Shown in pieces: positions 195 through 56,917 of a stretch of DNA of 64,000 nucleotides. A program made the translations under genes and the position numbers. Location: positions 16,894 through 80,893 of IMG/VR virus record IMGVR_UViG_3300027791_001841, one strand, 5' to 3'. Origin of the DNA: a virus. Under the pieces are notes generated by a model. It searched no databases. It had not been told where the DNA came from and saw only the letters and a program-made list of their open reading frames with translations. Numbering within the stretch: position 1 is the first letter of the stretch; each line of letters begins with the position of its first letter.

Positions 195-1174
195 TACTTT
201 ACCTTTGGTATCTTACTGTCTGCACTACTTACACATGTATCGGTAATACACTTAGTTGGTGTCTTAAACAGCGTAAAACCGCCCTGTAGCGTACCTAATG
301 GTTTATCGCTACAACTATATGCTCTCTTGACAGTATCACCGCTTATAATGCAGCTTTGATATCCTGCGTTACATGTCCAATCTTTAAATTTATTAAATCC
401 AAAAGCGTTCATGCGTTCAGCTTGGTCCAACCCATAGTCGTTGCCTTTGGCATCTTCCATGTACATTTGCATTACTTCTTTTTCTTTCCAGTGCTGTGGG
501 AATCCTCTTTGCATTCTTGTGATTTGTTCTTCAGTGTATCCATGTACAACGAAAGATGCGGTGGGGTCAGATTGGGGTTTGAGAGTGACATTGATACCTC
601 TGGTGGCAAATCGTTCCAGGCGTTCGTAAAGTTCCTCAAACATTTCAGGAACCATAACTTGATTGATCGTAACATAAACTCCTCCTTTCATAAGCTGAAG
701 ACATTTATCTCCAAACTCTTGTTCATTAGCAAACTCTGCATGATAACTTGCAGTAATACTTCGACGGTGTAAATGCTGTGTAGCATCAATAAATCTGTTC
801 CACCATTTACTACCTGGACTTAAATTCGTTGTTAGATGCAAACTTAGATACTTAGCATCATCATCGTTGGCATAGTGTTCTATTAAATCACCAAACTTCT
901 TATACGCAGTAGGCTCACCACCACTAAAGCTAAAGTGGAATTCTGTAAAGCCATTATCTCTAGCCTGACGTTTTATCTCATCAAGCGCATTAGTATATAT
1001 TTCAAACTCCTGATGATCCGGTACATTCGTGTTTGCATACGGCCAACAGTAGCTACAACTGTAATTACAAAAGCGGCCTAATATCCAGCTAACATTAAAC
1101 AATGGCTGGTCAAGCATGGTCTTTTGCCCAAACTTAACAATATTGTGAAACGGTATTAAAGTAAAATCATTCAT
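194..1174 (-). CDS. Radical SAM protein with extra C-terminal cysteines
   Basis: About 326 residues. A canonical radical SAM cluster motif CxxxCxxC lies at residues 36-43 (CNYSCSYC), followed by a SAM-binding FSFSGGEPT segment. The C-terminal third has at least five more cysteines (near WTCNAGYQSC, YSCSD, TKCITDTC), which suggests a SPASM/Twitch-like auxiliary Fe-S cluster. I chose ATG 1174 over the upstream ATG 1237 because the 21 extra residues would lie over the opposite-strand promoter at 1202-1230. A TTAAATA late-type box (1183-1190) sits 8 nt before ATG 1174. It overlaps the next, methyltransferase-like gene, so the two may act together. The substrate is unknown; it is not QueE. Confidence 0.85.
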   Translation of the reverse strand: MNDFTLIPFHNIVKFGQKTMLDQPLFNVSWILGRFCNYSCSYCWPYANTNVPDHQEFEIYTNALDEIKRQARDNGFTEFHFSFSGGEPTAYKKFGDLIEHYANDDDAKYLSLHLTTNLSPGSKWWNRFIDATQHLHRRSITASYHAEFANEQEFGDKCLQLMKGGVYVTINQVMVPEMFEELYERLERFATRGINVTLKPQSDPTASFVVHGYTEEQITRMQRGFPQHWKEKEVMQMYMEDAKGNDYGLDQAERMNAFGFNKFKDWTCNAGYQSCIISGDTVKRAYSCSDKPLGTLQGGFTLFKTPTKCITDTCVSSADSKIPKVK

Positions 1175-5155: not shown

Positions 5156-5638
5156 ATGGGACAATATTTTTCAACAAAAACATACGGACACAACATTGGG
5201 TTGAGTGCTGTGTTTAGACAACCTAATGCTGATCATTCGCATTGTCATTTACTACACGGATACAGCTTACAATTTAAGTTTGTATTTGGTTGCAGTGATT
5301 TAGACAATAAGAACTGGGCAGTTGACTTTGGAGGATTAAAACCTTTGAAGGCTTGGTTAGAAGATCATTTCGATCACAAAACAGCAATTGATGTTAAAGA
5401 TCCACACATGGAAACATTTATGGATCTTGAAGCTAAAGGCTTAGCAGAGATTAGAGTATTTGATGGTGTAGGTGCAGAGAAGTTTGCAGAACATGCATGG
5501 CAATTTGCAGATAAACTTATACGTGAAGCAACTAACAATCGTTGTTGGTGCGAGTCGGCAGAGTGTGCAGAACACGGTGCAAACAGTGCAATCTATACAC
5601 CATATCATACACGCAGAGAAACATACAAGGAAGATTAA
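5156..5638 (+). CDS. queD: QueD-family 6-carboxy-tetrahydropterin synthase
   Basis: 160 residues. QueD converts dihydroneopterin triphosphate to 6-carboxy-tetrahydropterin, the second step toward 7-deazaguanines. It belongs to a divergent subfamily also found in alphaproteobacteria. The core HSHCHLLHGYS is at residues 27-37, followed by VDFGGLK, FDHKT and a C-terminal EHGANSAIY. Relative to E. coli QueD, the first zinc His (AAHR) is Phe (AVFR), and the second His of HGH is Tyr36. His27, His29 and His34 may bind the metal instead. GGAGTTACAATT precedes the ATG. It works with FolE (52535) and QueE (55994). Confidence 0.88.
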   Translation: MGQYFSTKTYGHNIGLSAVFRQPNADHSHCHLLHGYSLQFKFVFGCSDLDNKNWAVDFGGLKPLKAWLEDHFDHKTAIDVKDPHMETFMDLEAKGLAEIRVFDGVGAEKFAEHAWQFADKLIREATNNRCWCESAECAEHGANSAIYTPYHTRRETYKED

Positions 5639-6421
5639 ATGACGGAAGGTATGAGAATTATAGCAGGTCCGTGTCAGCACGAATCACTAAAGCAATCATT
5701 AAGAATTGCTGAAGAGTGTAAACGTGTATGTGAAAAGCACGGTATTGAATATTACTTTAAAGCTAGTTTTGATAAAGCAAATAGATCAAGTATTAACGGT
5801 CAGCGTGGACTTGGATTAAATGCTACACTACACGATTTTGAAACTATCAAAGATAGACTTCTTGTAAAGACAATCACTGACGTGCATACAGTACCACAAA
5901 TCAATTGGATTACAGAAGGATTTAACGACACTGTAGATGCTTTACAGATTCCAGCGTTCTTATGCCGACAAACAGATTTAGTGCAGGCAGCATGTGCTAC
6001 AGATAAAATTGTTAATATTAAAAAAGGACAATTCTTAGCACCATGGGATATTGAAAATATACTAAGTAAAACTGAAGGTGCCAAAGAGGTTTGGATTACA
6101 GAAAGAGGAACTAGTTTTGGATATAATACTTTGGTCGTTGATTTCACTGGTATGGATTACATGCTTAACAATATCAGTGCTGATATCGTATTCGACGTTA
6201 CCCACTCTGTACAAAAACCAGGTGGTAACGGAAGCAGTAGCGGCGGCAATAGGGATTACGTTCCTGGCTTATGCCGGGCAGCAAGTGCTTTGGGTATTAG
6301 GAATTTCTTTTTAGAAGTACACGAAGATCCAGACAACGCACCTAGCGATGGACCTAATGCATTACATTTAAAAGATTTTGAAGCAGTGGTCGACAGCATT
6401 GTCCGCCATGCTGAGTGCTAA
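5639..6421 (+). CDS. kdsA: 3-deoxy-D-manno-octulosonate 8-phosphate synthase
   Basis: 260 residues, a full KdsA. It condenses phosphoenolpyruvate with arabinose 5-phosphate to give KDO-8-P, the precursor of the lipopolysaccharide inner-core sugar. Hallmarks are FKASFDKANRSS near residue 42, LQIPAFLCRQTDL, NIKKGQFLAPWD, TERGTSFGYN and the C-terminal EVHEDPDNAPSDGPN. The N-terminal AGPC carries the Cys of the metal-dependent class rather than the Asn of E. coli KdsA. It starts directly after the queD stop, with AAGGA as ribosome site. A phage copy suggests interest in envelope or capsular sugars. Confidence 0.93.
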   Translation: MTEGMRIIAGPCQHESLKQSLRIAEECKRVCEKHGIEYYFKASFDKANRSSINGQRGLGLNATLHDFETIKDRLLVKTITDVHTVPQINWITEGFNDTVDALQIPAFLCRQTDLVQAACATDKIVNIKKGQFLAPWDIENILSKTEGAKEVWITERGTSFGYNTLVVDFTGMDYMLNNISADIVFDVTHSVQKPGGNGSSSGGNRDYVPGLCRAASALGIRNFFLEVHEDPDNAPSDGPNALHLKDFEAVVDSIVRHAEC

Positions 6422-6424
6422 TGA

Positions 6425-7237
6425 ATGGCTATAGAAAACCACAACTTTACTAAGGCAGAACGTAAAGCGCAAAAAGCAGCTAGGCGTTTAGAAAAAGAGT
6501 TTAGAAATACTGATAAACTCCGTCAAAACGACAATGGCCCAGTAACAAACATTTTATGTGTTAGGTTTGGTAACAAGTACGGACACGAATATGTTATTAA
6601 ACTACGCAACATGATTGCAAGACATTGTCATGTGCCATACACGTTCAATTGCTTAACTGATGATCCAAAACCTATAGAAGGCGTAAACAACATTGTTATA
6701 CCAAACAAAGGATATCCTCGAGGTTGGTGGCACAAAGTACATATGTTTGATCCGTCATTACCATTAGAAGGTAGAATATTATACATGGATCTTGATGTTG
6801 TTGTACACAAGAGTATTGATAAATTTTGTAATGTGTGGCTAGATGATTTTATAGGAATTAGAGATTTTAATAGAAAGTTCCATCCTGGTTACAAACATTT
6901 AAACAGTTCAGTTATGGCATGGAATGCTAGAACCCAACAAAAAATCTTTCAAAGGTTTATTGAAAATCCAGCTCACGCTCAAAAACTCCACGGTGACCAA
7001 GATTGGATTTGGCAACAGTGTAGGGAAGAACTTAGATTTTGGCCTGACGAATGGATACAAAGTTACAAATGGGAAATACGCAGTCGTGATGAATTAACAA
7101 TGCGTGACGGACAACGAAACTTTAGAGATATTAGAAACGATATTAAACCACATTCAGATTGCTCAATTGCAGTGTTTCATGGAGATCCAAATCCAGCACA
7201 AGTAAAAGATAGTTTTGTAGTTGACAACTGGCAATAA
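6425..7237 (+). CDS. Putative glycosyltransferase with a DxD motif (GT-A/GT8-like)
   Basis: 270 residues. The N-terminus is a charged Lys/Ala/Arg helix. A Rossmann-like strand (NILCVRFGNKYG) begins near residue 42. GRILYMDLDVVV near residues 115-126 contains the Asp-x-Asp metal and sugar-nucleotide motif of GT-A transferases. DQDWIWQQ and VFHGDPNP near the end fit the fold's late acidic and His-Gly motifs. It lies 3 nt after kdsA and probably belongs to the same operon. Donor and acceptor are unknown. Confidence 0.75.
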   Translation: MAIENHNFTKAERKAQKAARRLEKEFRNTDKLRQNDNGPVTNILCVRFGNKYGHEYVIKLRNMIARHCHVPYTFNCLTDDPKPIEGVNNIVIPNKGYPRGWWHKVHMFDPSLPLEGRILYMDLDVVVHKSIDKFCNVWLDDFIGIRDFNRKFHPGYKHLNSSVMAWNARTQQKIFQRFIENPAHAQKLHGDQDWIWQQCREELRFWPDEWIQSYKWEIRSRDELTMRDGQRNFRDIRNDIKPHSDCSIAVFHGDPNPAQVKDSFVVDNWQ

Positions 7238-10825: not shown

Positions 10826-13800
10826 ATGGCACGTAAAATTGTAGATATTGGTAGTATTGGAAACGACGGTACCGGCGATAGTATTAGAGATTCGTTTCGT
10901 AAAACAAATGACAACTTCAAAGAGCTGTATAGCTCATTAGGACTTGGTGATAAACTTACATTTATTGCTCTTGATGATACACCACAGTCATTCTTAGGGC
11001 AAGAAGGTGCAATATTAGCGGTTAATCCAACCACTGACGGAGTACAGTTTAAGCAACTTACAGCTGGTCTTGGCATCACAGTTGATGATATATCAAACTC
11101 TAATCAAATTATTATATCTACTGAATTTAGTGAAATTTCAGGCGATACTTCACCACAACTAGGTGGTAACCTTTCAGTACAATCAGGTGGTAACACCTAC
11201 AGAATTCAAGGCTTAGATACTCCGGTAACTTCAGATGAGGCTGCTTCTAAAGGATATGCAGATACTAAAATTTCAAGAGCAGGTGTTGGTACTATTGACC
11301 CTGCTACAGGCAACCAAAACGTAGCGTTTGGTACTATGACAGGGCCGTTAATTTTAAGCAGAAGCCCAACGCCAGAAGATGACGAGCTATATGACGGCTT
11401 AATTGCTGCAACAAAACAATATGTTGATGGTGCAGCGTTTGGTAGTAGTGTAAATCTTTATGTTGCTACATCAGGACAAGACGAAAGAGTTGGAGTTAGT
11501 GAAGAACTACAAGGTAGAGCTCTTGCTTATGCATACAAAACAATTGAAGCTGCTCTAAAACGTGCAGAAGAAATTGTTTTAGAATCATTAGACGATATTG
11601 GTCCATACAAAAAACAACTTACTTACAATAACGGTTCAGGAATTGTAACACTATCACAAATTGATACTTCACCTGATTCAGGTACTGGATTTGCTGGTAC
11701 TGCTAGAATGAGTGTTGACAAAGTTACAATGAATGCTCCTGGTGCAAACTATCAAGCAGGCGATATTATTACACTGTCGGGTGGTACAGGAACAAGTGCA
11801 ACTATTAAGGTGCTTTCAACAGCAACTTCTCCAGGTGCAATTACAACGTTTCAACTAGTAGCACAAGGTGATTATACAGTATTACCAGGAACTGTAGGAG
11901 TTGCAACTACTTCCGATAGTACATTTGGTCTTGGAGCTACATTTGATATTACATATAAAGTCAATGGGGTTGATATTAGTGCTGGTGGTAGTGGTTATAG
12001 TTTAGTATCAGTAAGAGTAAGCGCAGCACTTCCGGCTGTAGGATCGTTTGGTAATGCAGTTATTAGTAGCGGAATTATTACTAGTGTTGACATTTTAGAT
12101 GCAGGTTCAAACTTTACAACAGTACCAACAGTTGAAGTTGACTTACCAAGATTCTTATTAGCAACCGGCGGATATCGTACAGATTACACAGGTGATGTAT
12201 TAACAGATACTCCTGTAGCATTTAGAACTAGAGACATTAGAGAAGGTTTATTCTTACGAGGTGAAACATCTGGAGCGTTAGCACAGATCCTAGCACACAC
12301 AGGTGCATTAGATAGTAACGGCAACGAAATATTTGATGTTGACATTAAGTATGGTACATTCTTAATTGACGAAGCTATTTCATACGGTGACATTACTAAC
12401 CAAGTACAAATTTCATTGTTTATTGAAAGTGGCATATACCAAGAAAACTATCCACTTAAAGTACCGAAGAACGTTGCTATCATTGGTGATGAATTTAGAC
12501 GAGTATTAATTAAGCCAAGACCAGGAACATCGAGTTCTCCTTGGTCATTCCAGAAGTTTAGAAGAGACCCTATAGTTGACGGGTTGACTGTTGCAACACA
12601 ATTATACGGTCATCATTATCTAAGTGATTCACTATCACCTGTATACCCTAAAATTGATAATGCAGGTGGACGTACAAAGGCAGCGGCGCTTATTAAATTA
12701 AACAAATCGTTTATCCAAAACGAAGTTGTTGAATGGATCAATCTACAGATTGCTACGAATACTGCACCGTTTACACAATCATTTACATATAATCAAGCAC
12801 TATGTAAACGTGATGTTGGACTAGTTGTTGACGCTATGATCTTTGATATAAGGTATGGTGGATATAACAGAACAATTTCCGCAGGTTTAAAATATTATCA
12901 AAGTGCGAGTGGGCGTGTTGCTATTGGTGCGCAACTATCTCAAACAATTGCAGGTCTTGAAAGAGCCCAAGCAGCAATTGATTATGTTCTTACTAACGTT
13001 GCACTACCTGGCACAATTACTACTGCACTACAAATTATTGATACTTCATTCATAGCAGAAACTGGCTCACAAGGAGTAGTTGCTGAATTATTTGATGCTA
13101 TTGAAGATGTTATGGACGGTTCAGGTTCAGTTAACTATCCAAAAGAAAATGATGTACTAGATGTGTTCTTAATGAACGATGCTAACATTATTAGAGCTGT
13201 TACTGGTCAAGGACATGGCGGCTTTATGATGGTGCTTGATCCAGAAGGACAAATACTTGCTAAGTCACCGTACTGTCAAGAATCTGCATCATTTAGTAAA
13301 TCTATTAACAAGCAAACATTTGCTGGTGGTATGTTTGTTGACGGCTTTGCTGGTAACTTACAGTTTCAACATGCTTCGTCAACATCTAATACAAGAATTG
13401 AAGTTACAGGATTAGAAAGACTGCCGCAGTTGCCTGCGTCGTTTATTGTTGATGACACTGTTTTTAGAATTAACTATGTTAGAGATTTTGTATACAATAA
13501 AAACGGATCATCTGCATCATTTATTTTAGATGAAACTACAGCATTTACTAGAGCTGCTGGTGCTGCTGTAACAACTATTTCACAAGCAAGTCCAGCAACA
13601 TTTACAAAAGTAGCACACAGACTACAAGAAGGTGCTGTTGTTAGATTTACTACAACAGGAACACTACCTTCACCGTTAGTAGTTGGGCAAGATTATTATG
13701 TATCTGGTACAAATATAACTACTAACACGTTCCAAGTTAGTGCTACGCCAGGCGGTGCAGACATTAACACAACTACAGCAGGGTCTGGAACACACAGTCA

Positions 13801-25115: not shown

Positions 25116-25526
25116 TTGAACAACGTAGACTTAAATCGCTATCAAGAATTTGTAAAAGAAGTAACTAGTACAGCAAGTAATAATACTGCTGAACTATCAA
25201 AAACACTAGATAGCCTAGAAACCCAAAGTGGTGTTAACATGGCACTACTACTAACAGGCTCGATTGGAATGGCGAGTGAAGGAGGCGAATTTGCAGAAAT
25301 TGTTAAAAAATGTATCTTCCAAGGTAAACCACTTGACGATGAAACTATATTTCATGCTAAACGAGAACTTGGCGATATTATTTGGTATTGGATTAATAGC
25401 TGCAGGGCTCTTAGTATTGACCCTAACGAAGTAATTGCTGAAAATGTAAACAAACTAAAAGCTCGTTATCCGGGCGGAGAGTTTGATGTACATTATAGCG
25501 AAAACAGAAAAGATGGCGATCTCTAA
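25116..25526 (+). CDS. mazG: MazG-like nucleoside triphosphate pyrophosphohydrolase
   Basis: 136 residues from TTG 25116, preceded by AAGGAGAAA. MazG-type acidic motifs are present: EGGEFAEIVKK (near residue 54) and ELGDIIWYWINS (near residue 90), followed by NVNKLKARYPGGEF. Such enzymes hydrolyse NTPs or dNTPs to monophosphates. In phages they are proposed to affect ppGpp or nucleotide pools. First gene of an operon with a consensus early promoter. Confidence 0.88.
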   Translation: MNNVDLNRYQEFVKEVTSTASNNTAELSKTLDSLETQSGVNMALLLTGSIGMASEGGEFAEIVKKCIFQGKPLDDETIFHAKRELGDIIWYWINSCRALSIDPNEVIAENVNKLKARYPGGEFDVHYSENRKDGDL

Positions 25527-25539
25527 AAAGGACAACGAT

Positions 25540-25953
25540 ATGACAGTAGGAATTACGTTTAGTAGTTTTGATTTATTTCATAGTGGACATGTTGCTATGC
25601 TTAAAGAAGCAAGTGAGCATTGTAACTACTTAATTGTAGGACTACAAACGGATCCTACTATCGACCGTCCTGAAAAGAACAAACCTATCCAAAGTGTGTT
25701 TGAAAGATATGTACAACTAAAAGGTTGTTCGTATATTGATGAAATTATCCCTTACGAAACCGAGCAAGATTTACTAGATATACTGCTAACTTATACTATT
25801 GATCGTAGATTTATTGGTGAAGAATATAAGAAAAAAGATTTCTCTGGTAAACAGATTTGTGTTGACAAAGGCATAGAAATATATTATAATAAAAGACAAC
25901 ACTCATTTAGCACATCTAATTTGAGAAAACGAATAAGCGAGGCAAACAAATGA
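25540..25953 (+). CDS. Cytidylyltransferase-like protein (TagD/glycerol-3-phosphate type)
   Basis: 137 residues from ATG 25540 (AAAAGGACAACG before it; an in-frame upstream start lies inside mazG). The N-terminus GITFSSFDLFHSGHVAML is the nucleotidyltransferase HxGH motif in its cytidylyltransferase form. Unlike TagD, the C-terminal RTEGISTT block appears as a shortened FSTSNLRKRI. It probably activates a phosphorylated small molecule with CTP or ATP; the substrate is unknown. It overlaps gp44 by 4 nt (ATGA). Confidence 0.8.
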   Translation: MTVGITFSSFDLFHSGHVAMLKEASEHCNYLIVGLQTDPTIDRPEKNKPIQSVFERYVQLKGCSYIDEIIPYETEQDLLDILLTYTIDRRFIGEEYKKKDFSGKQICVDKGIEIYYNKRQHSFSTSNLRKRISEANK

Positions 25954-45170: not shown

Positions 45171-47840
45171 ATGAGTTACGTAGACGCTTTCTATAATCGC
45201 GATCAGGACGTTATTAACGTTGTTGAACGTGATGCAAAAGGTAATAGACATTACCGAGAATACAACCCAAGACATATTTTTTATTACGCAGACCCTAGAG
45301 GTAAGTTCCAGAGTATATATGGACAACCGCTATCAAGGGTAACTTGTAAAAACATCAAAGAGCTTCGCAAAGAACTTGCTATCCATAGCAACAAAAAACT
45401 GTTTGAAAGCGATATTAATCCAATTTACAGAATGCTTGAAGATAACTATCTCAATCAAGACGCTCCTAAACTAAACGTTGCGTTTTTTGATATTGAGGTT
45501 GACTTTGATCCCGAGCGTGGATACGCTTCACCAGAAGATGCGTTTATGCCAATTACATCTGTTTCTGTGTATTTGCAGTGGATGGAAACAATGGTGTGTT
45601 TTGCAATTCCACCTAAGACACTAAGCATGGAAGAAGCAGAGAAAGCTATCGAAGGCATTCCTAATGTAATGCTGTTTAAGAAAGAAAGTGAAATGCTTGA
45701 TGCATTTCTTGATGTAATTCAAGAAGCTGATGTACTAAGTGGATGGAACAGCGAAGGCTTTGATATTCCGTACACAGTTAATCGTATTACTAAAACATTA
45801 AGCAAAGAAGATACAAAACGGTTGTGTCTTTGGAATCAATATCCTAAAAAGCGTGAGTATGAGAAGTTTGGTAAAACATCTGTAACTTATGATTTAATTG
45901 GACGAGTGCATGTAGACTCATTAGAACTATATAGAAAATATAATTATGAAGAACGCCATACATATCGACTAGATGCTATTGGTGAGTTAGAGATCGGTGA
46001 GAACAAAACTGTTTATGATGGTTCACTTGATGCACTATACAACAACAATTTTAGAACGTTTATTGAATATAACATTCAAGATACTGCACTACTAGACAAG
46101 TTAGATAAGAAACTGAAGTTTATTGATCTTGCAAATACTATTGCACACGAAAACACAGTTCTTATTCAAACAACTATGGGTGCTGTTGCTGTTACAGAAC
46201 AAGGCATTATTAACGAAGCACACAGACGTGGCTTTATTGTTCCAAACAGAATTCGCAGAGAGCCAGGCAGCGAGCCAGCAGCTGGTGCTTATGTAGCATA
46301 TCCTAAAAAAGGTATTCACGAGTGGATTGGTAGTGTTGACTTGAACTCACTATATCCTAGTGTGATTCGTGCGTTAAACATGGGTCCAGAAACTATTGTT
46401 GGTCAACTACGTCAAGATGGTACTAAAGCACGTATTGAGGCTGAGATGGCTAAAGGTAAAAGTTTTGCTAGTGCTTGGGAAGGTCAGTTTGGTTCTGTAG
46501 AATACGAAGCTGTAATGGCTAAAGAAGTTGGTAGACAACTTACTATTGATTGGGAAGAAGGTGGCGGTGAAGACACTCTTAGTGCTGCTCAGGTATACGA
46601 TCTAATTTACGAAAGTAACCAGCCATGGATGCTTAGTGCTAACGGTACTATCTTTACACACGAAAAAGAAGGTATCATTCCTGGACTACTAAAACGTTGG
46701 TATAAAGAACGTAAAGAAATGCAAGGCAAGATGCGTGATGCTATTTCTGCAAATAATCCAATTGAAGAAGAATACTGGGCTAAAAGGCAGTTAGTTAAAA
46801 AGATTTTGCTTAACAGTTTATATGGTGCTATTCTTAATCCAGGTTGTAGATTCTTTGATAACCGTATTGGACAATCAACAACACTAAGTGGCAGAGCTAT
46901 TGTTAAACATATGGCTGCAAAGATTAACGAAATTATCACTGGCGAGTATGATCACACTGGCAAGTCAATTGTATATGGTGATACTGACTCTACATACTTT
47001 AGTGCATATAGCACACTTAAAGATGAGATAGATGCAGGTAATATTCCGTGGGATCGTGAAAGTGTTATGAACTTGTATGACACAATAGGCGACAACTGCA
47101 ATACAACGTTTCCTAAGTTTATGATGGATGCATTCCATTGTCCAAAGAGTCGTTCAGATGTTATTGCGGCAGCTAGAGAAATTGTTGCAACCAAAGGTCT
47201 GTTTATTACTAAAAAGCGTTATGCTGTATTGTATTACGATATTGAAGGCAAACGTACAGATGTAGACGGTAAAGACGGAAAGATTAAAGCAATGGGCTTA
47301 GATCTTAAACGTTCGGATACTCCTGTTATTATTCAGGAATTTTTAAATGAAGTGTTAACTCGTGTACTTGCAGGTGCCGAACAACAAAATGTACTAGATT
47401 ACATTACTGAATTTAGAACAGAATTTAAAGCAAGACCTGGTTGGGAGAAAGGATCACCTAAACGTGCAAACAAAGTTACTGAATACCAAGCTAAAGAAAA
47501 GAAGCAAGGTAAAGCTAACATGCCCGGACATGTTCGAGCAAGTATTAACTGGAACACGCTAAAGCGTATGAATGATGACAAGTATTCTATTACTATCACT
47601 GACGGTGCTAAAGTTATTGTTTGTAAAGTTAAACAGAATCCTATGGGCTATACAAGTATTGCATATCCTGTAGACGAACTAAGAATACCGCAATGGTTTA
47701 AAGAACTGCCATTTGATGGCGAGGCTATGGAAAATGCAGTCATTGACGAAAAACTTGGCAACCTTATTGGAGTATTGGATTGGGATATTAAATCTACTAG
47801 AAGTGATAATAACTTTAATAGCTTGTTTGACTTTGAGTAG
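45171..47840 (+). CDS. 43: Family B DNA polymerase (T4 gp43)
   Basis: 889 residues, the replicative polymerase. Exonuclease motif I FFDIEVDFD is near residue 107. Polymerase motif A DLNSLYPSVIRALN is near residue 390, motif B KKILLNSLYGAILNPG is near residue 543, and motif C YGDTDSTYF is at about 602-610. Then comes KKRYAVLYYDIEG. The C-terminal FNSLFDFE is the clamp-binding tail that docks gp45, whose gene follows. CAGGAGAATAA precedes the ATG. Codon use is typical of the window. Confidence 0.98.
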   Translation: MSYVDAFYNRDQDVINVVERDAKGNRHYREYNPRHIFYYADPRGKFQSIYGQPLSRVTCKNIKELRKELAIHSNKKLFESDINPIYRMLEDNYLNQDAPKLNVAFFDIEVDFDPERGYASPEDAFMPITSVSVYLQWMETMVCFAIPPKTLSMEEAEKAIEGIPNVMLFKKESEMLDAFLDVIQEADVLSGWNSEGFDIPYTVNRITKTLSKEDTKRLCLWNQYPKKREYEKFGKTSVTYDLIGRVHVDSLELYRKYNYEERHTYRLDAIGELEIGENKTVYDGSLDALYNNNFRTFIEYNIQDTALLDKLDKKLKFIDLANTIAHENTVLIQTTMGAVAVTEQGIINEAHRRGFIVPNRIRREPGSEPAAGAYVAYPKKGIHEWIGSVDLNSLYPSVIRALNMGPETIVGQLRQDGTKARIEAEMAKGKSFASAWEGQFGSVEYEAVMAKEVGRQLTIDWEEGGGEDTLSAAQVYDLIYESNQPWMLSANGTIFTHEKEGIIPGLLKRWYKERKEMQGKMRDAISANNPIEEEYWAKRQLVKKILLNSLYGAILNPGCRFFDNRIGQSTTLSGRAIVKHMAAKINEIITGEYDHTGKSIVYGDTDSTYFSAYSTLKDEIDAGNIPWDRESVMNLYDTIGDNCNTTFPKFMMDAFHCPKSRSDVIAAAREIVATKGLFITKKRYAVLYYDIEGKRTDVDGKDGKIKAMGLDLKRSDTPVIIQEFLNEVLTRVLAGAEQQNVLDYITEFRTEFKARPGWEKGSPKRANKVTEYQAKEKKQGKANMPGHVRASINWNTLKRMNDDKYSITITDGAKVIVCKVKQNPMGYTSIAYPVDELRIPQWFKELPFDGEAMENAVIDEKLGNLIGVLDWDIKSTRSDNNFNSLFDFE

Positions 47841-47913: not shown

Positions 47914-48651
47914 ATGAAAGACATACTAAAAGATATCGTAGATCACACACAGAACTTGGGATTCTTGACAACTGTCAAGGTATCTGGTGAAGAAAGTGAA
48001 ACTACAATGTTTTCTATGGCTGATGATAGATCAGTTATTATGGAAGCAAAGACGCACAATCCTTATCCAGACATGCTTGGCACGTTTGGTATGCCACAGC
48101 TTCAAAAGTTAAAGTATTTGCTAGATGGTAGTGAATATAAAACTGACGCTAAGATTAGTGTAACAACTGGTGTGCGTAACGACCAAACTATTCCAACAGG
48201 AATTAAATTTGAAAACGCAACAGGCGATTTTAAAAACGACTATAAGTTTATGCTTATGGAAATTATTAATGAGAAGATGAAAACTGTTAAGTTCCGCGGT
48301 GTTAAGTGGGATGTAGAAGTTGTTCCATCACTTGCTGGTGTGCAACGTTTTAACTTCCAAGCAGGTGCTAATAGTGAGCATCCAACATTCTTAGCTAAAA
48401 CTGAGGACGGCAATTTGAAGTTTATCTTTGGTGATGCAGGTTCGCATGGTGGCGAGTTTGTGTTTGCTACTGACACTATAGGTACATTGGATCGTGGTTG
48501 GACTTGGCCTGTTGCAAGTATCTTAGCAATTCTTAAAATTGCAGATGTAAACAACACTAAGATGAGTCTTAGTAACGAAGGTGCTATCCAGATCGAATTA
48601 GACAGTGGTTTAGCAACATACAAATATATCATTCCAGCACAGGCGGCCTAA
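47914..48651 (+). CDS. 45: Sliding clamp (T4 gp45)
   Basis: 245 residues, similar in length to T4 gp45. PYPDMLGTFGMPQLQKLKYL and PSLAGVQRFNFQAGAN are typical of phage clamps. It tethers gp43 to DNA, and in T4-like phages it also activates late promoters through gp33/gp55. It lies directly after gp43. gp44 is at 25950, so the replisome genes are not all together as in T4. Confidence 0.95.
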   Translation: MKDILKDIVDHTQNLGFLTTVKVSGEESETTMFSMADDRSVIMEAKTHNPYPDMLGTFGMPQLQKLKYLLDGSEYKTDAKISVTTGVRNDQTIPTGIKFENATGDFKNDYKFMLMEIINEKMKTVKFRGVKWDVEVVPSLAGVQRFNFQAGANSEHPTFLAKTEDGNLKFIFGDAGSHGGEFVFATDTIGTLDRGWTWPVASILAILKIADVNNTKMSLSNEGAIQIELDSGLATYKYIIPAQAA

Positions 48652-48659: not shown

Positions 48660-50207
48660 ATGAAAGAACCAGTCAACTTATCACCATTACAGAAAGACTA
48701 CGCTGTGTATTTGCCAGCTATTAGTTCTTTCTATAGTACCTACGTTGCTAAACAGCGACTAGGTGAATTTATTCCAAAAGAAAGAATTCCTGCGGGCTTT
48801 GACCGCGGAATTGAAGGCATGAACTTCTTAAACGAAGAACAAGGATACTTTACATACAAGTATGGTTTGTATTCAGCAGGTCACGCACAATTGAATCTTG
48901 AAAAGACTATGGTACAAGATGCTATGGTACAAGATAGAGATCGTGGTAAAACAATGATTTTAGGTGACTCAGGTGGATATCAGGTTGGTAAAGGTGTTCT
49001 TAAGTTTGATTGGTTAAACTTTGATGGTCCTGCTGCAAACAAGACTAGAGATGACATTCTTAATTGGCTAGAGCTTACAGCAGATTGGTCAATGCTACTT
49101 GATGTTCCGACTTGGGCATGTGATCATATTCATGCTCCTAAAACAGGACTTAAAGACTTTCAAGACTGCTTAGATAAAACACGTTTTAATAACAAGTATT
49201 GGTTAGAGCGTAGACTAGGCGTAACTAAGTTTTTAAATGTACTACAAGGCTCAGACTGGGACACTGCTGAAAAGTGGTACGAAGGTGTTAAAGAGTTTAG
49301 TGATCCTGCTATTTGGGGTGACAAGGCTTGTGAAGGCTGGGCAATGGGTGGTGCTAATATGTGCAAGATGCCTATTACACTACGCAGACTTATGACAATG
49401 AAATTTGACGGTATGCTAGAAGGTAAAGACTGGATGCACTTCTTAGGTACTGCACAACTTGATTGGTCATGTTACTTAACTAGTATTCAAAGACAAGTAC
49501 GTAAACATATTAATCCTAACTTTACAGTAAGTTTTGATTGTGCATCACCGTTTATTGCAACTGCACATGGTCTTGTTTACACTAACAGTCAACACACTTC
49601 AAAGCGTTGGTCAGTTATTATGGACAAAGCAATGGATAATAAAGCACTTGCTGGCAGACATGACATTCCGTTTCCGTTTGAAAGTGAAATTGGTAGGCGT
49701 TTAAGTGTTGCAGACATTTGTCATTATGCACCAGGTATGCTTAACAAGATTGGTAAAGAAGGTAAAACAAGTTGGGATAGCTTTGGTTATGCACTAATGA
49801 TGTCACACAACGTGTATCAACATATTGTTGCTGTACAACGTGCTAACAACTTAACAGATATCGAACTTGCAAAGCAACGTCCAGACTGGAGACATTGGAG
49901 AAAAGTTAAAGAAGCAGATAAGAGTGATGAGTACTCAGCTTGGGTACCACGTAATATTCTTTACTTCGATCGTTTTGTTGAAGAACTATTTGAACAGCCT
50001 ACAAAAGAAGCAGCATTTGCAATGATTAAAGAAGCTGATGCGTTCCTTAAGAACTGTGAAGGTTCTAGACTACGTGGTGGTGTTACAAACATTGCTAACT
50101 CGCTGTTTGTTGAAGTTGACGATGCAGGTGACGAAATTGTTCCGTGGACTGATGACAGAGAAGATGACGAACTAGCTAAATTAGAAACTGAGTTAACAGG
50201 AGAATAA
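48660..50207 (+). CDS. dpdA: TGT-like transglycosylase, probable DpdA (7-deazaguanine insertion into DNA)
   Basis: 515 residues. tRNA-guanine transglycosylase motifs are in order: LGDSGGYQVG at 101-110 (Asp103 matches the base-recognising Asp of DSGGFQ), NVLQG at 193-197 (TGT GIVQG), GWAMGG at 226-231, and VSFDCASPF with Asp293 in place of the catalytic nucleophile of FDCVLPTR. The C-terminal CxCxxC zinc site of tRNA enzymes is not seen, and the chain is longer than TGT. This is the profile of phage DpdA enzymes that exchange guanine in DNA for a 7-deazaguanine. FolE, QueD and QueE here can supply the base. Confidence 0.82.
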   Translation: MKEPVNLSPLQKDYAVYLPAISSFYSTYVAKQRLGEFIPKERIPAGFDRGIEGMNFLNEEQGYFTYKYGLYSAGHAQLNLEKTMVQDAMVQDRDRGKTMILGDSGGYQVGKGVLKFDWLNFDGPAANKTRDDILNWLELTADWSMLLDVPTWACDHIHAPKTGLKDFQDCLDKTRFNNKYWLERRLGVTKFLNVLQGSDWDTAEKWYEGVKEFSDPAIWGDKACEGWAMGGANMCKMPITLRRLMTMKFDGMLEGKDWMHFLGTAQLDWSCYLTSIQRQVRKHINPNFTVSFDCASPFIATAHGLVYTNSQHTSKRWSVIMDKAMDNKALAGRHDIPFPFESEIGRRLSVADICHYAPGMLNKIGKEGKTSWDSFGYALMMSHNVYQHIVAVQRANNLTDIELAKQRPDWRHWRKVKEADKSDEYSAWVPRNILYFDRFVEELFEQPTKEAAFAMIKEADAFLKNCEGSRLRGGVTNIANSLFVEVDDAGDEIVPWTDDREDDELAKLETELTGE

Positions 50208-50764: not shown

Positions 50765-50823
50765 AAATGCAACAACGTGAATCTTATTACAACTATATGT
50801 TAAGACGTATGAAAGAAGAAAAT

Positions 50824-51228
50824 ATGGCAAACGATAAAGAAAATGCTATGCAAAATGCAAAGCGAATGATTTGGGTTACTTTCACTAAAGAAGGTATCCA
50901 TAAGTATCCTGCGGCACTAGATGATCCTAGTCTTGCAACAGGTGATGAATACGATGTTAGTTTTTTGGGTTATCCCCACAGACACATCTTTCATTTTAGA
51001 GTAGGTATCACTGTAACACATAACGACAGAGATATTGAGTTTATTCAATTCAAGCGTTGGCTTGAGAAACTGTATGAAGGTGAACTTAATGTAGATTATA
51101 AATCTTGTGAAATGATGTCAGATGATTTGTATAAACAAATCACAACAAAACACCCCGGACGTGAAGTCCACATCGATGTCTCCGAAGACGGAGAAAACGG
51201 TGCCCATATTGAATATGCAAAGTATTAA
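50824..51228 (+). CDS. Conserved phage protein, 134 aa
   Basis: The frame is open from ATG 50767, but that codon precedes the predicted transcription start. ATG 50824 (MANDKENAMQNAKRMIWV) has GAAGAAA before it and is preferred; ATG 50797 and 50809 remain possible. HKYPAALDDPSLATGDEYDV then LGYPHRHIFHFRV are the most distinctive parts. This resembles a protein family common in marine myoviruses; function unknown. Confidence 0.65.
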   Translation: MANDKENAMQNAKRMIWVTFTKEGIHKYPAALDDPSLATGDEYDVSFLGYPHRHIFHFRVGITVTHNDRDIEFIQFKRWLEKLYEGELNVDYKSCEMMSDDLYKQITTKHPGREVHIDVSEDGENGAHIEYAKY

Positions 51229-52534: not shown

Positions 52535-53224
52535 TTGAGTATAAGCGAAAAAATTAAAACAAAACTACAAGACGCAGGCGTTAGATTTTGGGCCGGCGAC
52601 AACATTAGTGAAGTCCTGCAAGAGGGCGACAAACAATTATTAATTGAAGAACTTACACCTAAGTTCGAAGCAGTATTAGACGGTCTTGTAATTGATCGTT
52701 ATACAGATCCTAACAGTATGGATACTGGTAAACGCCTAGCAAAAATGTATGTAAATGAATTAATGGCAGGTCGATATGATCCTATGCCTAATGCAACTGC
52801 ATTTCCTAATCACATAGATAACGGATACGAAGGTATGCTAGTTGTACGCAGTGAGCTTAAAAGTGTTTGCTCACATCATCATCAACCCGTAACTGGTGTT
52901 GCATATATTGGAATTATTGCTGGAGAAACTTTAATTGGACTTAGCAAATATACACGTATTGCACAATGGTGTGCTAGACGTGGCACATTACAAGAAGAAC
53001 TATGTAATGATATTGCTAGAGAGATTATGAGTTCAACTGGATCTACTAACGTAGGTGTTTACATCCAAGCAACACACGGGTGTTGTGAGAACAGAGGCAT
53101 TATGGCAAATAGCAGTCTTACACAGACAACTGTTTTAAAAGGTGCGTTTAAAGATGACGCTGGCACTAAGAAGGAATTTTTTGATAACATTAAACTACAG
53201 CAAGAATTTGCTTGTGGAAAATAG
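52535..53224 (+). CDS. folE: GTP cyclohydrolase I
   Basis: 229 residues from TTG 52535 (CGGAGAATAAAA before it). Converts GTP to dihydroneopterin triphosphate, the first step to folate and to 7-deazaguanines. Zinc ligands are present: CSHHHQP with Cys112 and His115, and Cys183 or Cys184 in HGCCENRG. KYTRIAQWCARR is the substrate helix. With QueD and QueE in the same genome, the 7-deazaguanine route is the likely purpose. A small hairpin (GGCA/TGCC, 52502-52515) lies in its leader. Confidence 0.95.
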   Translation: MSISEKIKTKLQDAGVRFWAGDNISEVLQEGDKQLLIEELTPKFEAVLDGLVIDRYTDPNSMDTGKRLAKMYVNELMAGRYDPMPNATAFPNHIDNGYEGMLVVRSELKSVCSHHHQPVTGVAYIGIIAGETLIGLSKYTRIAQWCARRGTLQEELCNDIAREIMSSTGSTNVGVYIQATHGCCENRGIMANSSLTQTTVLKGAFKDDAGTKKEFFDNIKLQQEFACGK

Positions 53225-54032: not shown

Positions 54033-54450
54033 GTTTCTAAAACTAATTGGACGAGAGCGTATTATCTACGATAGAGATAACACAATTCCGTATCTAATTA
54101 GATACTATCTATTTTTAAAAGACAGAAAAAACTTTCCGTTTAATATTACTATGCACAAAGTACTAGTAAGTGACGAACCTACACTACACGATCATCCGTG
54201 GAGTTGGGGAGCATTAATTATTAAAGGTGGCTATTGGGAACACACTTCAGAAGGTAAGTTTTGGCGTGGGCCTGGTAGTATACGTTTTAGAACAGCAAAA
54301 GATTTGCATTGGTTAGAACTTGCTAAAGACGCAGACGGAAACGAAATTCCATGCTGGAGCATTTTTTATATGGGCAAGAAAGCTCAAGAATGGGGTTTTG
54401 TTAAAGATGGTAAATGGATACACAACGAGGATTATTTAAATCATGGGTGA
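54022..54450 (+). CDS. Cupin-fold protein
   Basis: 142 residues. The cupin metal motif 1 is HDHPWSWGALIIKGGYWEH (about residues 55-73), followed by GPGSIRFRTAKDLHWLEL as motif 2. This leaves a His/His/Glu/His-type metal site. Cupins bind sugars, small acids or serve as dioxygenases and isomerases; the substrate here is unclear. It overlaps the phosphoribosyltransferase gene by 8 nt, suggesting a shared pathway. Confidence 0.72.
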   Translation: MFLKFLKLIGRERIIYDRDNTIPYLIRYYLFLKDRKNFPFNITMHKVLVSDEPTLHDHPWSWGALIIKGGYWEHTSEGKFWRGPGSIRFRTAKDLHWLELAKDADGNEIPCWSIFYMGKKAQEWGFVKDGKWIHNEDYLNHG

Positions 54451-54991
54451 TATTAAGAAACATTATTATAGCTGGGCTGACGTAGAAAAAATGTGTGTAA
54501 GCATTGTTAATCAGATGTACGCTGACAGTTGGCGGCCTGATTACATTGTAGGTCTAACACGAGGCGGAAATGTGCCTGCTACTATTATTAGCAACATGAC
54601 TGGCATACGTTGCGAAGCACTTAAAGTAAGTCTACGTGACGATAACAGTCAAAGCGAAAGCAACTTATGGATGGCAGAAGATGCATACGGATATGCAAGT
54701 GATACAAATATCGGTGGTCCTACTACAGCAAAGAAAATCCTTATTGTAGACGACATTAACGATACTGGTGCTACTTTCAATTGGATCAAGGAAGACTGGC
54801 CTGCTAGTTGTTTGCCTGATGATCCGAGATGGGAGAAAGTTTGGTATAGTAACGTTCGGTTTGCTACCCTAACTAATAATCTAGCAAGTGACGCTACAGT
54901 TCCTGTTAGTTACACATGTCACGAAATAAACAAATTTGAAGAAGATGTTTGGCTTGTTTATCCTTGGGAAAATGTAGGAGAGTACACATGA
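54443..54991 (+). CDS. Purine-type phosphoribosyltransferase
   Basis: 182 residues. The PRPP-binding motif ILIVDDINDTGATF is at about residues 99-112, and YIVGLTRGGNVPATIIS near residue 34 is the flexible-loop entry of the Gpt/HPRT type I fold. It joins a purine base to PRPP or works in reverse. With a 7-deazaguanine pathway nearby, salvage of displaced guanine or of a deazapurine is an attractive but unproven idea. Coupled to its neighbours (8 nt overlap; ATGA). Confidence 0.82.
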   Translation: MGDIKKHYYSWADVEKMCVSIVNQMYADSWRPDYIVGLTRGGNVPATIISNMTGIRCEALKVSLRDDNSQSESNLWMAEDAYGYASDTNIGGPTTAKKILIVDDINDTGATFNWIKEDWPASCLPDDPRWEKVWYSNVRFATLTNNLASDATVPVSYTCHEINKFEEDVWLVYPWENVGEYT

Positions 54992-55805: not shown

Positions 55806-55986
55806 GCAATGGACAGTTAAAGTAGAAGAAGACCCGGAGACAGGAGAGGTAATTTTACCTTTTCCGCCGGATCTTCTCAGCCAAATGGGATGGGATTTTG
55901 GTGATACTCTTATTTGGGATGACAATCTTAATGGCACCTTTTCAATAAAGAAAAAGGTTGACAACACCGATGAAAAGAAGGTATAA
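55798..55986 (+). CDS. Small conserved phage protein, 62 aa (AbrB-like pattern)
   Basis: TTG start overlapping the preceding stop region. The pattern 'VKVEEDPETGEVILPFPPDL then GWDFGDTLIWDD' resembles the swapped-hairpin fold of AbrB/MazE DNA-binding proteins and recurs in marine phages. The 3' end covers the -35 and -10 boxes of the queE promoter. Function unknown. Confidence 0.6.
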   Translation: MSKQWTVKVEEDPETGEVILPFPPDLLSQMGWDFGDTLIWDDNLNGTFSIKKKVDNTDEKKV

Positions 55987-55987
55987 T
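55958..55987 (+). promoter_or_regulatory. Consensus sigma70-type promoter of queE, +1 at the ATG
   Basis: TTGACA 55958-55963, an 18 nt spacer and TATAAT 55982-55987. Expected +1 is 55994, the A of the queE ATG. There is no Shine-Dalgarno sequence, so a leaderless mRNA is predicted. Confidence 0.8.
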
Positions 55988-55993
55988 AGTAGT

Positions 55994-56917
55994 ATGAATG
56001 AAACAATCGCAACTACCGAAGATACTAAGAAGTATTACTACAGTGAAATTTTTCACAGTATTCAAGGTGAAGGACAATACACTGGTGTTCCTACTGCTTG
56101 GATTAGATTCTTTTTATGTAACTTGCAATGTAACGGGTTTGGACAATTAGATCCAACTAATCCTGATACATACGAACTTCCGTTTGAAACTTTTGATTTA
56201 TCTAAAATTGATAAAGTAGAAGACTTACCTGTTTGGGATAAAGGTTGTGACAGCAGTTACACATGGGCTAAACGATATAAACACTTAATGGGGCAAGAAA
56301 CTCCTAAGGCATTAGCACATAAGATTATTGATATCTTAAAAACAGAGAGTAACCCGGAAGGGTTATTCTTACATCCTGTATCGCAACAGAGGCAACACTT
56401 CTGTGTTACAGGCGGCGAACCTATGATGCCACAAAGTCAGAAAGCGTTTATAGGTATTATGCGAGAGCTTAAAGCACAAAATAATTTACCCGCTAGTATT
56501 ACATTTGAAACTAACGGTACACAAAATCTTACACAAGAGTTTATTAACTTCTGGCAACAAGAAACAGAAATTGAATTATTCTTTAGTGTATCACCTAAAC
56601 TGTTTAGCACATCAGGCGAACTTGCTAAGAAAGCAATTAGACCCGAAGTAGTTGAGCAGTATCGTAAATTATCTAGCAAAGGACAATTAAAGTTTGTTGT
56701 TGGTAGTTTACAACGTGAGTGGGATGACATGGAGGCAGCTATAGCACAATTTCGTGAAGTAGATGTTGACTTTCCTATTTGGGTAATGCCCGTTGGTGCT
56801 AGAGAAGAAGAACAAACCGCAACCGCAGGGCATGTTGCAAAAATGGCATTTCAGAAAGGTTATAATGTAGCTGCTAGAGTACATGTATACTTATTTGGTA
56901 ATGCAATTGGAACTTAA
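55994..56917 (+). CDS. queE: 7-carboxy-7-deazaguanine synthase QueE with a split cluster motif
   Basis: 307 residues. A radical SAM enzyme that contracts 6-carboxy-tetrahydropterin to 7-carboxy-7-deazaguanine. Family marks are SIQGEGQYTGVPTAWIRF (residues 22-39), VTGGEPMM, ITFETNGTQ, FFSVSPKL and the C-terminal HVYLFGN. The cluster cysteines are Cys42, Cys46 and probably Cys85 (KGCDSSYTW). The usual CxxxCxxC is therefore stretched to C-x3-C-x38-C by a 36-residue insertion. ATG 55994 is chosen because the in-frame upstream ATG lies in the promoter. It should work with FolE and QueD. Confidence 0.9.
   Translation: MNETIATTEDTKKYYYSEIFHSIQGEGQYTGVPTAWIRFFLCNLQCNGFGQLDPTNPDTYELPFETFDLSKIDKVEDLPVWDKGCDSSYTWAKRYKHLMGQETPKALAHKIIDILKTESNPEGLFLHPVSQQRQHFCVTGGEPMMPQSQKAFIGIMRELKAQNNLPASITFETNGTQNLTQEFINFWQQETEIELFFSVSPKLFSTSGELAKKAIRPEVVEQYRKLSSKGQLKFVVGSLQREWDDMEAAIAQFREVDVDFPIWVMPVGAREEEQTATAGHVAKMAFQKGYNVAARVHVYLFGNAIGT

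Follow-up and report, generated by a model that had tools for sequence, protein, structure and literature searches.

A glycosyltransferase and a QueD-shaped protein of a marine phage recur with 7-deazaguanine genes in phages unrelated to it: a possible sugar-bearing guanine in DNA

The window analysed in this study is a stretch of 64,000 nucleotides (positions 16,894 to 80,893 of the 80,893-base IMG/VR virus record IMGVR_UViG_3300027791_001841). It encodes FolE, QueD and QueE together with a DpdA-like transglycosylase, a QueD-like T-fold protein and a GT4-type glycosyltransferase (Table 1). FolE, QueD and QueE convert GTP to 7-carboxy-7-deazaguanine (CDG), as is established for these families. 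The dpdA, folE and queE genes lie on one strand within 8.3 kb and only queD is remote (43 kb), hence the three transcription units over 50 kb described in the first-pass annotation are not well founded. The glycosyltransferase and T-fold genes, both missed in that annotation, sit between dpdA and folE in the window and are found again in relatives, in the neighbourhood of dpdA, folE or queE.

Table 1 Features of the putative DNA modification module and its surroundings, in window positions
Feature	Position	Strand	Evidence
QueD, 'HGY' type	5156..5638	+	Pfam PTPS, E 2.4e-12; phrog_2389, E 2.3e-40
Cytidylyltransferase-like protein	25483..25953	+	Pfam CTP_transf_like, E 2.8e-12
Family B DNA polymerase (context only)	45171..47840	+	Pfam DNA_pol_B, E 5.3e-35
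Conserved protein upstream of dpdA, 245 aa, phrog_12062 (context only)	47914..48651	+	31–78% identity, 9/13 loci
DpdA-like DNA-guanine transglycosylase (predicted), 515 aa	48660..50207	+	ATG start; TGT fold, hhalign to DpdA2, invariant Asp frame
Protein between dpdA and the QueD-like gene, 176 aa	50209..50739	+	Homologues at 43–56% identity, 6/13 comparison loci
QueD-like T-fold protein, 153 aa, phrog_17812 (unnamed)	50767..51228	+	AlphaFold2 model, E. coli QueD match
GT4-type glycosyltransferase, 349 aa	51442..52491	+	EX7E motif, E257 and E265
FolE, GTP cyclohydrolase I	52535..53224	+	Pfam GTP_cyclohydroI, E 2.9e-37; CSHHH and HGCC motifs by eye
Phosphoribosyltransferase-like protein	54443..54991	+	Pfam Pribosyltran, E 1.8e-9
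QueE, CDG synthase (radical SAM)	55958..56917	+	Likely ATG at 55994; phrog_2076, E 4.3e-52

The family matches in Table 1 bear out the earlier assignment of FolE, QueD and QueE. In QueE, C42 and C46 of the CX3C motif are invariant (9/9 aligned), and the window QueD keeps Cys30, Asp73-His74, Glu108 and Glu139 in alignment, with 'HGY' replacing the usual 'HGH'. Among the 18 records carrying this DpdA family, FolE and QueE were each detected in 17 and QueD in eight, most of the 18 being fragments. A long insertion lies between the CX3C motif of QueE (55994–56917) and the next cysteine and is present in six of nine aligned QueE proteins. Directly after queD starts a DAHP synthetase I family gene (5639–6421, Pfam E 4.6e-53), followed by a glycosyltransferase-like ORF (6425–7237) that is near queD and separate from the GT4-type gene. 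The contig also holds five weak radical-SAM matches beyond QueE, at window positions 875–1069 (minus strand) and in the 17 kb left of the window, which suggests further radical SAM genes.

The transglycosylase retains the catalytic frame described in the first-pass annotation. Asp103 and Asp293 are identical in 20/20 homologues in an alignment of DpdA-like relatives picked for diversity (A8), as are S104, G105, G106, D148, Q108, H260 and G263, while Q196 is kept in 19/20. In tRNA-guanine transglycosylases (TGT), the Asp of the DSGG motif is the general acid/base and a further Asp the nucleophile. The CxCxxC zinc motif, whose absence had also been pointed out, occurs in 0/20 of the aligned homologues, and a search of the record for PF01702 (Tgt) gave 0 matches, with the control positive in 14/14 genomes. 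Single-protein profile searches did not connect the protein to DpdA or TGT: at the thresholds applied, Pfam, PHROGs and NCBIfam yielded nothing, and PADLOC was likewise unhelpful. A first, narrow alignment gave nothing useful against PDB sequences and a weak match to nt-1 DpdA2 (hhalign, 7%), and A8 found TGT among PDB sequences only at E 1.7 or worse, via the DSGG stretch. The links were supplied by a structure model and by comparing A8 with an alignment of four DpdA2 proteins (A9: nt-1, ACP17, X1 and BUCT-ZZ01). That hhalign comparison reached 96.1% probability (E 3.1e-9) over approximately residues 100–325, placing DSGG on DSGG, pairing the FD/YD motif and aligning the nucleophile Asp. For the ACP17 DpdA2, in turn, the profile TIGR00449 (tgt_general) gave a hit of E 4.6e-7, under its cut-off.

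The AlphaFold2 model, for which 27 relatives were used, reached moderate quality (mean pLDDT 66.2, pTM 0.74). Its best solved structures are tRNA-guanine transglycosylases (Foldseek E 1.3e-4; TM ~0.3–0.4), including the archaeosine TGT 1j2b (VIA Z 14.3, rmsd 5.1, 295 aligned), and archaeal and bacterial TGT alike align with Z ~14, rmsd ~5 and ~290 residues (VIA). Among viral models the top match is a 596-aa entry, the length of which fits the Vibrio 2.275.O protein, followed by the TGT of Achromobacter phage Motura (E 2.9e-7); nt-1 R9TGF0 (464 aa, DpdA2 length) also matches (E 1.1e-4). We conclude from these comparisons that the ORF encodes a divergent DpdA-type protein that shares homology with DpdA2 and falls within no named subfamily testable here. 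The TGT fold, the DpdA2 homology, the lack of CxCxxC and PF01702 matches and the co-occurrence of FolE and QueE together support a DNA 7-deazaguanine system as the best reading, with insertion into DNA predicted, and the first-pass preference for DpdA over tRNA Tgt gains support from the same evidence.

Relatives of the DpdA-like protein were found in 13 phage records, comprising 11 Pseudomonas phages, Vibrio 2.275.O and Sinorhizobium Phosso, with 41–42% identity to those of the Pseudomonas PA5oct/Paride kind. A relative was encoded by 122 of 123 pattern-matched IMG/VR stretches in a first scan and by at least 593 of the 599 matches listed in a second, and this conservation excludes a chance origin of the ORF.

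The 153-aa protein was modelled with high confidence (pLDDT 93.4) and, among solved structures, matches E. coli QueD best (4ntk; Z 12.1, rmsd 2.2, 109 aligned; Foldseek E 2.5e-5). Its QueD-like identity was settled by structure, as sequence profiles had failed: hhalign of the family against QueD was negative (2%) and PDB sequences gave chance hits only. The two proteins share the T-fold, three His and two Glu, with H45, H71, H73, E115 and E140 invariant in 45/45 family members and fitting, by eye, the metal and substrate residues of QueD. QueD catalysis uses a Cys before the His motif and an Asp-His dyad. That Cys is present in 6/6 of a QueD set versus 0/45 of the 153-aa family, where the invariant Cys114 is located elsewhere, and Asp-His, found in 6/6 of the QueD set, occurs anywhere in only 8/45 and is not conserved. 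With ring-site residues kept and the Cys and Asp-His missing, the protein would be expected to bind a ring of pterin or deazaguanine type but to perform other chemistry, and it probably processes CDG. One enzyme with such an activity is DpdL, reportedly a CDG decarboxylase; an NCBIfam search bearing on DpdL gave no match. The family is also present in Cellulophaga phages phiST, phi13:1 and phi19:2. A composite QueD, in which the 'HGY' QueD and the 153-aa protein form one active site, was rejected as the main reading because the T-fold family occurs in 26 phage records versus 123 with window-like QueD ('HGY' or not), some of which have QueC, e.g. BcepGomr.

The glycosyltransferase assignment rests on its family. 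E257, G260 and E265 are present in 8/8 aligned members, and the X1 (E 8e-12) and BUCT-ZZ01 (E 2.5e-6) members exceed Pfam glycosyltransferase cut-offs; the window protein itself gave no Pfam glycosyltransferase match and the family profile found nothing among PDB sequences. Using tblastn with single queries against 50,697 records, the ACP17 glycosyltransferase matched 20 phage records and the window protein 19 of those 20. Each of the 20 has at least one 7-deazaguanine gene. By the same approach, 317 records matched QueC, 186 matched QueE and 123 matched window-like QueD, together about 1% or less of the database. Eleven of the 20 are Pseudomonas phages with dpdA-like and T-fold genes (FolE, QueD and QueE being looked up in PA5oct only), and the remainder are Phosso, ACP17 (two records), X1, BUCT-ZZ01 and, with QueD, PhiXhv-12, PhiXhv-15, PhiXhv-16 and Ep032. 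The last four are the most distant and were not among the T-fold hits. In Xanthomonas phage PhiXhv-12 the gene follows, at a distance of two genes, a homologue of the Gat-QueC of 9g (33% identity, E 2.4e-74) and adjoins a gene annotated as N-acetylglucosaminyl-malate deacetylase, with no T-fold match in that stretch; this context ties the glycosyltransferase to deazaguanine genes generally and not to QueC-less ones only. Conversely, for phiST, Ahp1 and RHph_I1_18, which lack QueC and have the T-fold gene, neither the stretches examined nor tblastn gave a glycosyltransferase match. A glycosyltransferase acting on hydroxymethyl-pyrimidines was also considered and is not favoured, since the thymidylate synthase of the window is Thy1 (ThyX), not a known hydroxymethylase type, which leaves no obvious hydroxymethyl-pyrimidine acceptor.

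Gene order varies between phages. In Phosso, dpdA is ~170 kb off, yet the glycosyltransferase and T-fold genes remain beside folE and queE. The order in Acidovorax phage ACP17 is queD, folE, dpdA2, glycosyltransferase, T-fold, queE; small genes precede both folE and dpdA2, and dpdA2 overlaps the glycosyltransferase gene by 4 bases. Xanthomonas phage X1 has folE, three genes, glycosyltransferase, dpdA, T-fold and queE; a PAPS-reductase-family gene is found beside folE. In Synechococcus phage BUCT-ZZ01 the run is queE, xanthine-guanine phosphoribosyltransferase, a small gene, queD, folE, a gene, dpdA2, T-fold and glycosyltransferase. A glycosyltransferase-family HMM recovered the proteins of ACP17 (E 4.4e-82), X1 (E 5.3e-40) and BUCT-ZZ01 (E 1.2e-21). 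Other genes of the window could contribute. The clade-conserved 176-aa protein is a possible accessory, the phosphoribosyltransferase-like protein may salvage guanine freed by base exchange, and the cytidylyltransferase-like protein is possibly involved in sugar or polyol activation; by synteny, a relative of the latter overlaps queD in one comparison locus (L178) and follows dpdA in another (L177).

The lack of a visible QueC, on which the first-pass annotation had based its suggestion of CDG as the inserted base, extends to the whole 80,893-base record (0 matches). As that record is a fragment, its lack of QueC alone says little, and the argument rests on complete relatives: the PA5oct (286.8 kb) and Phosso (469.5 kb) genomes carry FolE, QueD, QueE and the DpdA-like gene and gave neither a QueC match nor, above the cut-off, one to QueF. 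The QueC profile scored over its cut-off in 12 of 14 control genomes. Among the 18 DpdA-family records, QueC and QueF over the cut-off were each found once, both in the partial genome of Vibrio 2.275.O, where a dpdA-like gene, QueF, a YhhQ-like transporter, QueC and FolE form one run. No QueC match at E<=1 was obtained in ACP17, BUCT-ZZ01, phiST, Ahp1 or RHph_I1_18, and X1 gave one match beneath the cut-off. The branch point at CDG rather than preQ0 is thus strengthened by the complete relatives. Plain CDG may not be the final base, given the glycosyltransferase and QueD-like partner between dpdA and folE. Excerpts of PMC6884629 describe another QueC-less phage, Bipper, as possibly CDG-modified.

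The presence of QueC was compared with that of the two linked genes across 30 records (26 from IMG/VR and four phages, with nt-1 as a DpdA2 control). The T-fold protein and the glycosyltransferase each occur in 28 of these and both are missing only in Vibrio 2.275.O and nt-1, which are also the only two with full-length QueC (W02 and W04). Two IMG/VR contigs (G017 and G023) have partial PF06508 hits over the cut-off, covering 63–75 of 210 positions, and their glycosyltransferase matches are partial, at contig ends. These PF06508 hits, like the sub-threshold X1 hit, were not counted as QueC and may represent other PP-loop ATPases. The IMG/VR contigs are fragments, so absences in them are weak, and the 28 records are related, so that few independent events or lineages lie behind the pattern.

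DNA 7-deazaguanines, DpdA and DpdA2 are already known (excerpts of PMC6884629), and excerpts of PMC7824862 ascribe a deazaguanine synthesis and incorporation system to Pseudomonas phage PA5oct. Compared with the DpdA2 system of Vibrio phage nt-1 (Hutinet 2019, PMC6884629, in the same excerpts), the window likewise has FolE, QueD-like and QueE genes and a transglycosylase whose DSGG and nucleophile Asp align in the profile comparison above. The two differ in that nt-1 DpdA2 belongs to phrog_10773 and the window protein to no PHROG, and in that nt-1 has QueC and lacks the glycosyltransferase and T-fold protein. PA5oct resembles the window in its DpdA-like, FolE, QueD, QueE, glycosyltransferase and T-fold genes and in that no QueC was found, and differs in having FolE and QueD ~55 kb from dpdA and a second QueD of canonical 'HGH' type; its two QueD-like genes, one 'HGH' and one 'HGY', lie at L106:9207–9725 and 11502–11972. 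ACP17 shares the pathway, the glycosyltransferase and T-fold families and the lack of a QueC match, but its transglycosylase is a DpdA2 (phrog_10773). What our sequence comparisons would add to these published systems is the link to a glycosyltransferase, which was not found in connection with deazaguanine DNA systems in the literature searched.

From the families, folds, catalytic frames and linkage described above, and from the lack of QueC in complete relatives, we infer a substrate, an order of steps, a DNA target, a final-base chemistry and a biological role. FolE, QueD and QueE would make CDG from GTP, and the QueD-shaped protein would act on it, perhaps by taking off or changing its carboxylate. 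Next, the DpdA-like enzyme would swap guanine in DNA for the resulting base, with Asp293 as the nucleophile as in its family, and the linked GT4 enzyme would put a sugar on the modified base, so that the DNA escapes restriction and further defences that sense DNA. Our best explanation of the locus, which we consider reasonably probable, is a phage module for DNA hypermodification that does without QueC and in which CDG is processed, inserted and glycosylated. The more specific claim is advanced tentatively, at a little under even confidence: that phage DNA carries glycosylated 7-deazaguanine, which a QueD-fold enzyme with a new type of chemistry derives from CDG, which DpdA-type enzymes insert and which is sugar-capped by a dedicated GT4 family occurring with at least two DpdA subfamilies. 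A weak point is the sugar acceptor, as CDG offers a carboxylate and 7-deazaguanine nothing obvious, so that the sugar would have no obvious handle if the T-fold protein is a decarboxylase. Also against the module is that the glycosyltransferase and the lack of QueC are not strictly tied beyond the 30 records (PhiXhv-12; phiST, RHph_I1_18 and Ahp1), to which add the QueD count of 8/18, the weak DpdA model, the relatedness of the records and the partial state of the Vibrio 2.275.O genome.

The DNA base might instead be plain CDG or 7-deazaguanine, with the T-fold protein a CDG decarboxylase, perhaps DpdL, and the glycosyltransferase serving surface or protein glycosylation or similar, which we regard as rather unlikely. 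Both dCDG and dDG are reportedly known phage bases. In Cellulophaga phage phiST the T-fold gene is found beside folE, queD and queE with no glycosyltransferase match, and a 259-aa phiST protein, by its length the product of the second gene past the T-fold gene, weakly matches the DpdA model structurally (E 0.014). Another Cellulophaga phage, phi38:2, is called 7-deazaguanine-modified in excerpts of PMC11515303. A separate role for the glycosyltransferase fits poorly, however, with its position next to, or not far from, dpdA and the T-fold gene across the window clade, PA5oct, ACP17, X1 and BUCT-ZZ01, which span two DpdA subfamilies, and with the 7-deazaguanine gene in 20/20 phage records of its family.

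A further point against the module is that many hosts possess QueC and could be a source of preQ0. In this alternative, host QueC would convert CDG to preQ0, the DNA would carry dPreQ0 as in phage CAjan and the phage genes would only raise flux. QueC is indeed common in prokaryotes, as the control genomes show, and excerpts of Hutinet 2019 (PMC6884629) allow that phages may depend on host preQ0. We nevertheless think this improbable, as the QueC-positive Vibrio 2.275.O (partial) and nt-1 are without the glycosyltransferase and T-fold genes and the 28 records without full-length QueC have both. That the enzymes serve queuosine-type tRNA modification and not DNA, for which the TGT fold and the shared precursor pathway would speak, appears very improbable in light of the missing CxCxxC motif (0/20), the DpdA2 homology and the DNA polymerase gene nearby.

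If the hypermodification module is as proposed, QueC-less phages would represent a deliberate branch and not incomplete pathways, and a function would be given to phrog_17812 and to a glycosyltransferase family that is unnamed in most of these phage records. The 7-deazaguanine bases known from phages bear small groups at C7 (excerpts of PMC6884629). A sugar at C7 would connect deazaguanines with T4-type glycosylation, two separate worlds of camouflage of phage DNA, and would provide a new form of protection from restriction, Cas nucleases and type IV enzymes. A glycosylated deazaguanine is directly testable in the isolated phages PA5oct, Paride, Callisto, ACP17 and X1.

Relatives of the DpdA-like protein at 28–34% identity were also observed on bacterial contigs and chromosomes of Shinella, Polynucleobacter, Limnohabitans, Brevundimonas and others (loci including L180, L181, L182, L185, L186, L187, L188, L190 and L194). 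A gene related to the L185 integrase is close by in 11 of 19 such loci, and a partner of ~555 aa is found in eight of 19 (one copy partial), the L180 copy having no Pfam, PHROG or PADLOC match; these loci possibly constitute a mobile DNA-modification cassette. In L185 a homologue of the glycosyltransferase family lies directly downstream of dpdA. The Rhizobiales locus L182 encodes, divergent from the dpdA-like gene, an 863-aa protein (L182:7328–9919) without a match in family searches and with a C-terminal DDD motif, GT-A-like by eye. Finally, a phage-like contig binned as Rhodobacteraceae (L178:9986–20181) carries a run starting with dpdA, T-fold, nucleotidyltransferase/mannose-P isomerase, glycosyltransferase and IMPDH genes and also holding FolE, a 2OG-Fe(II) oxygenase, the cytidylyltransferase and QueD, a richer hypermodification cluster.
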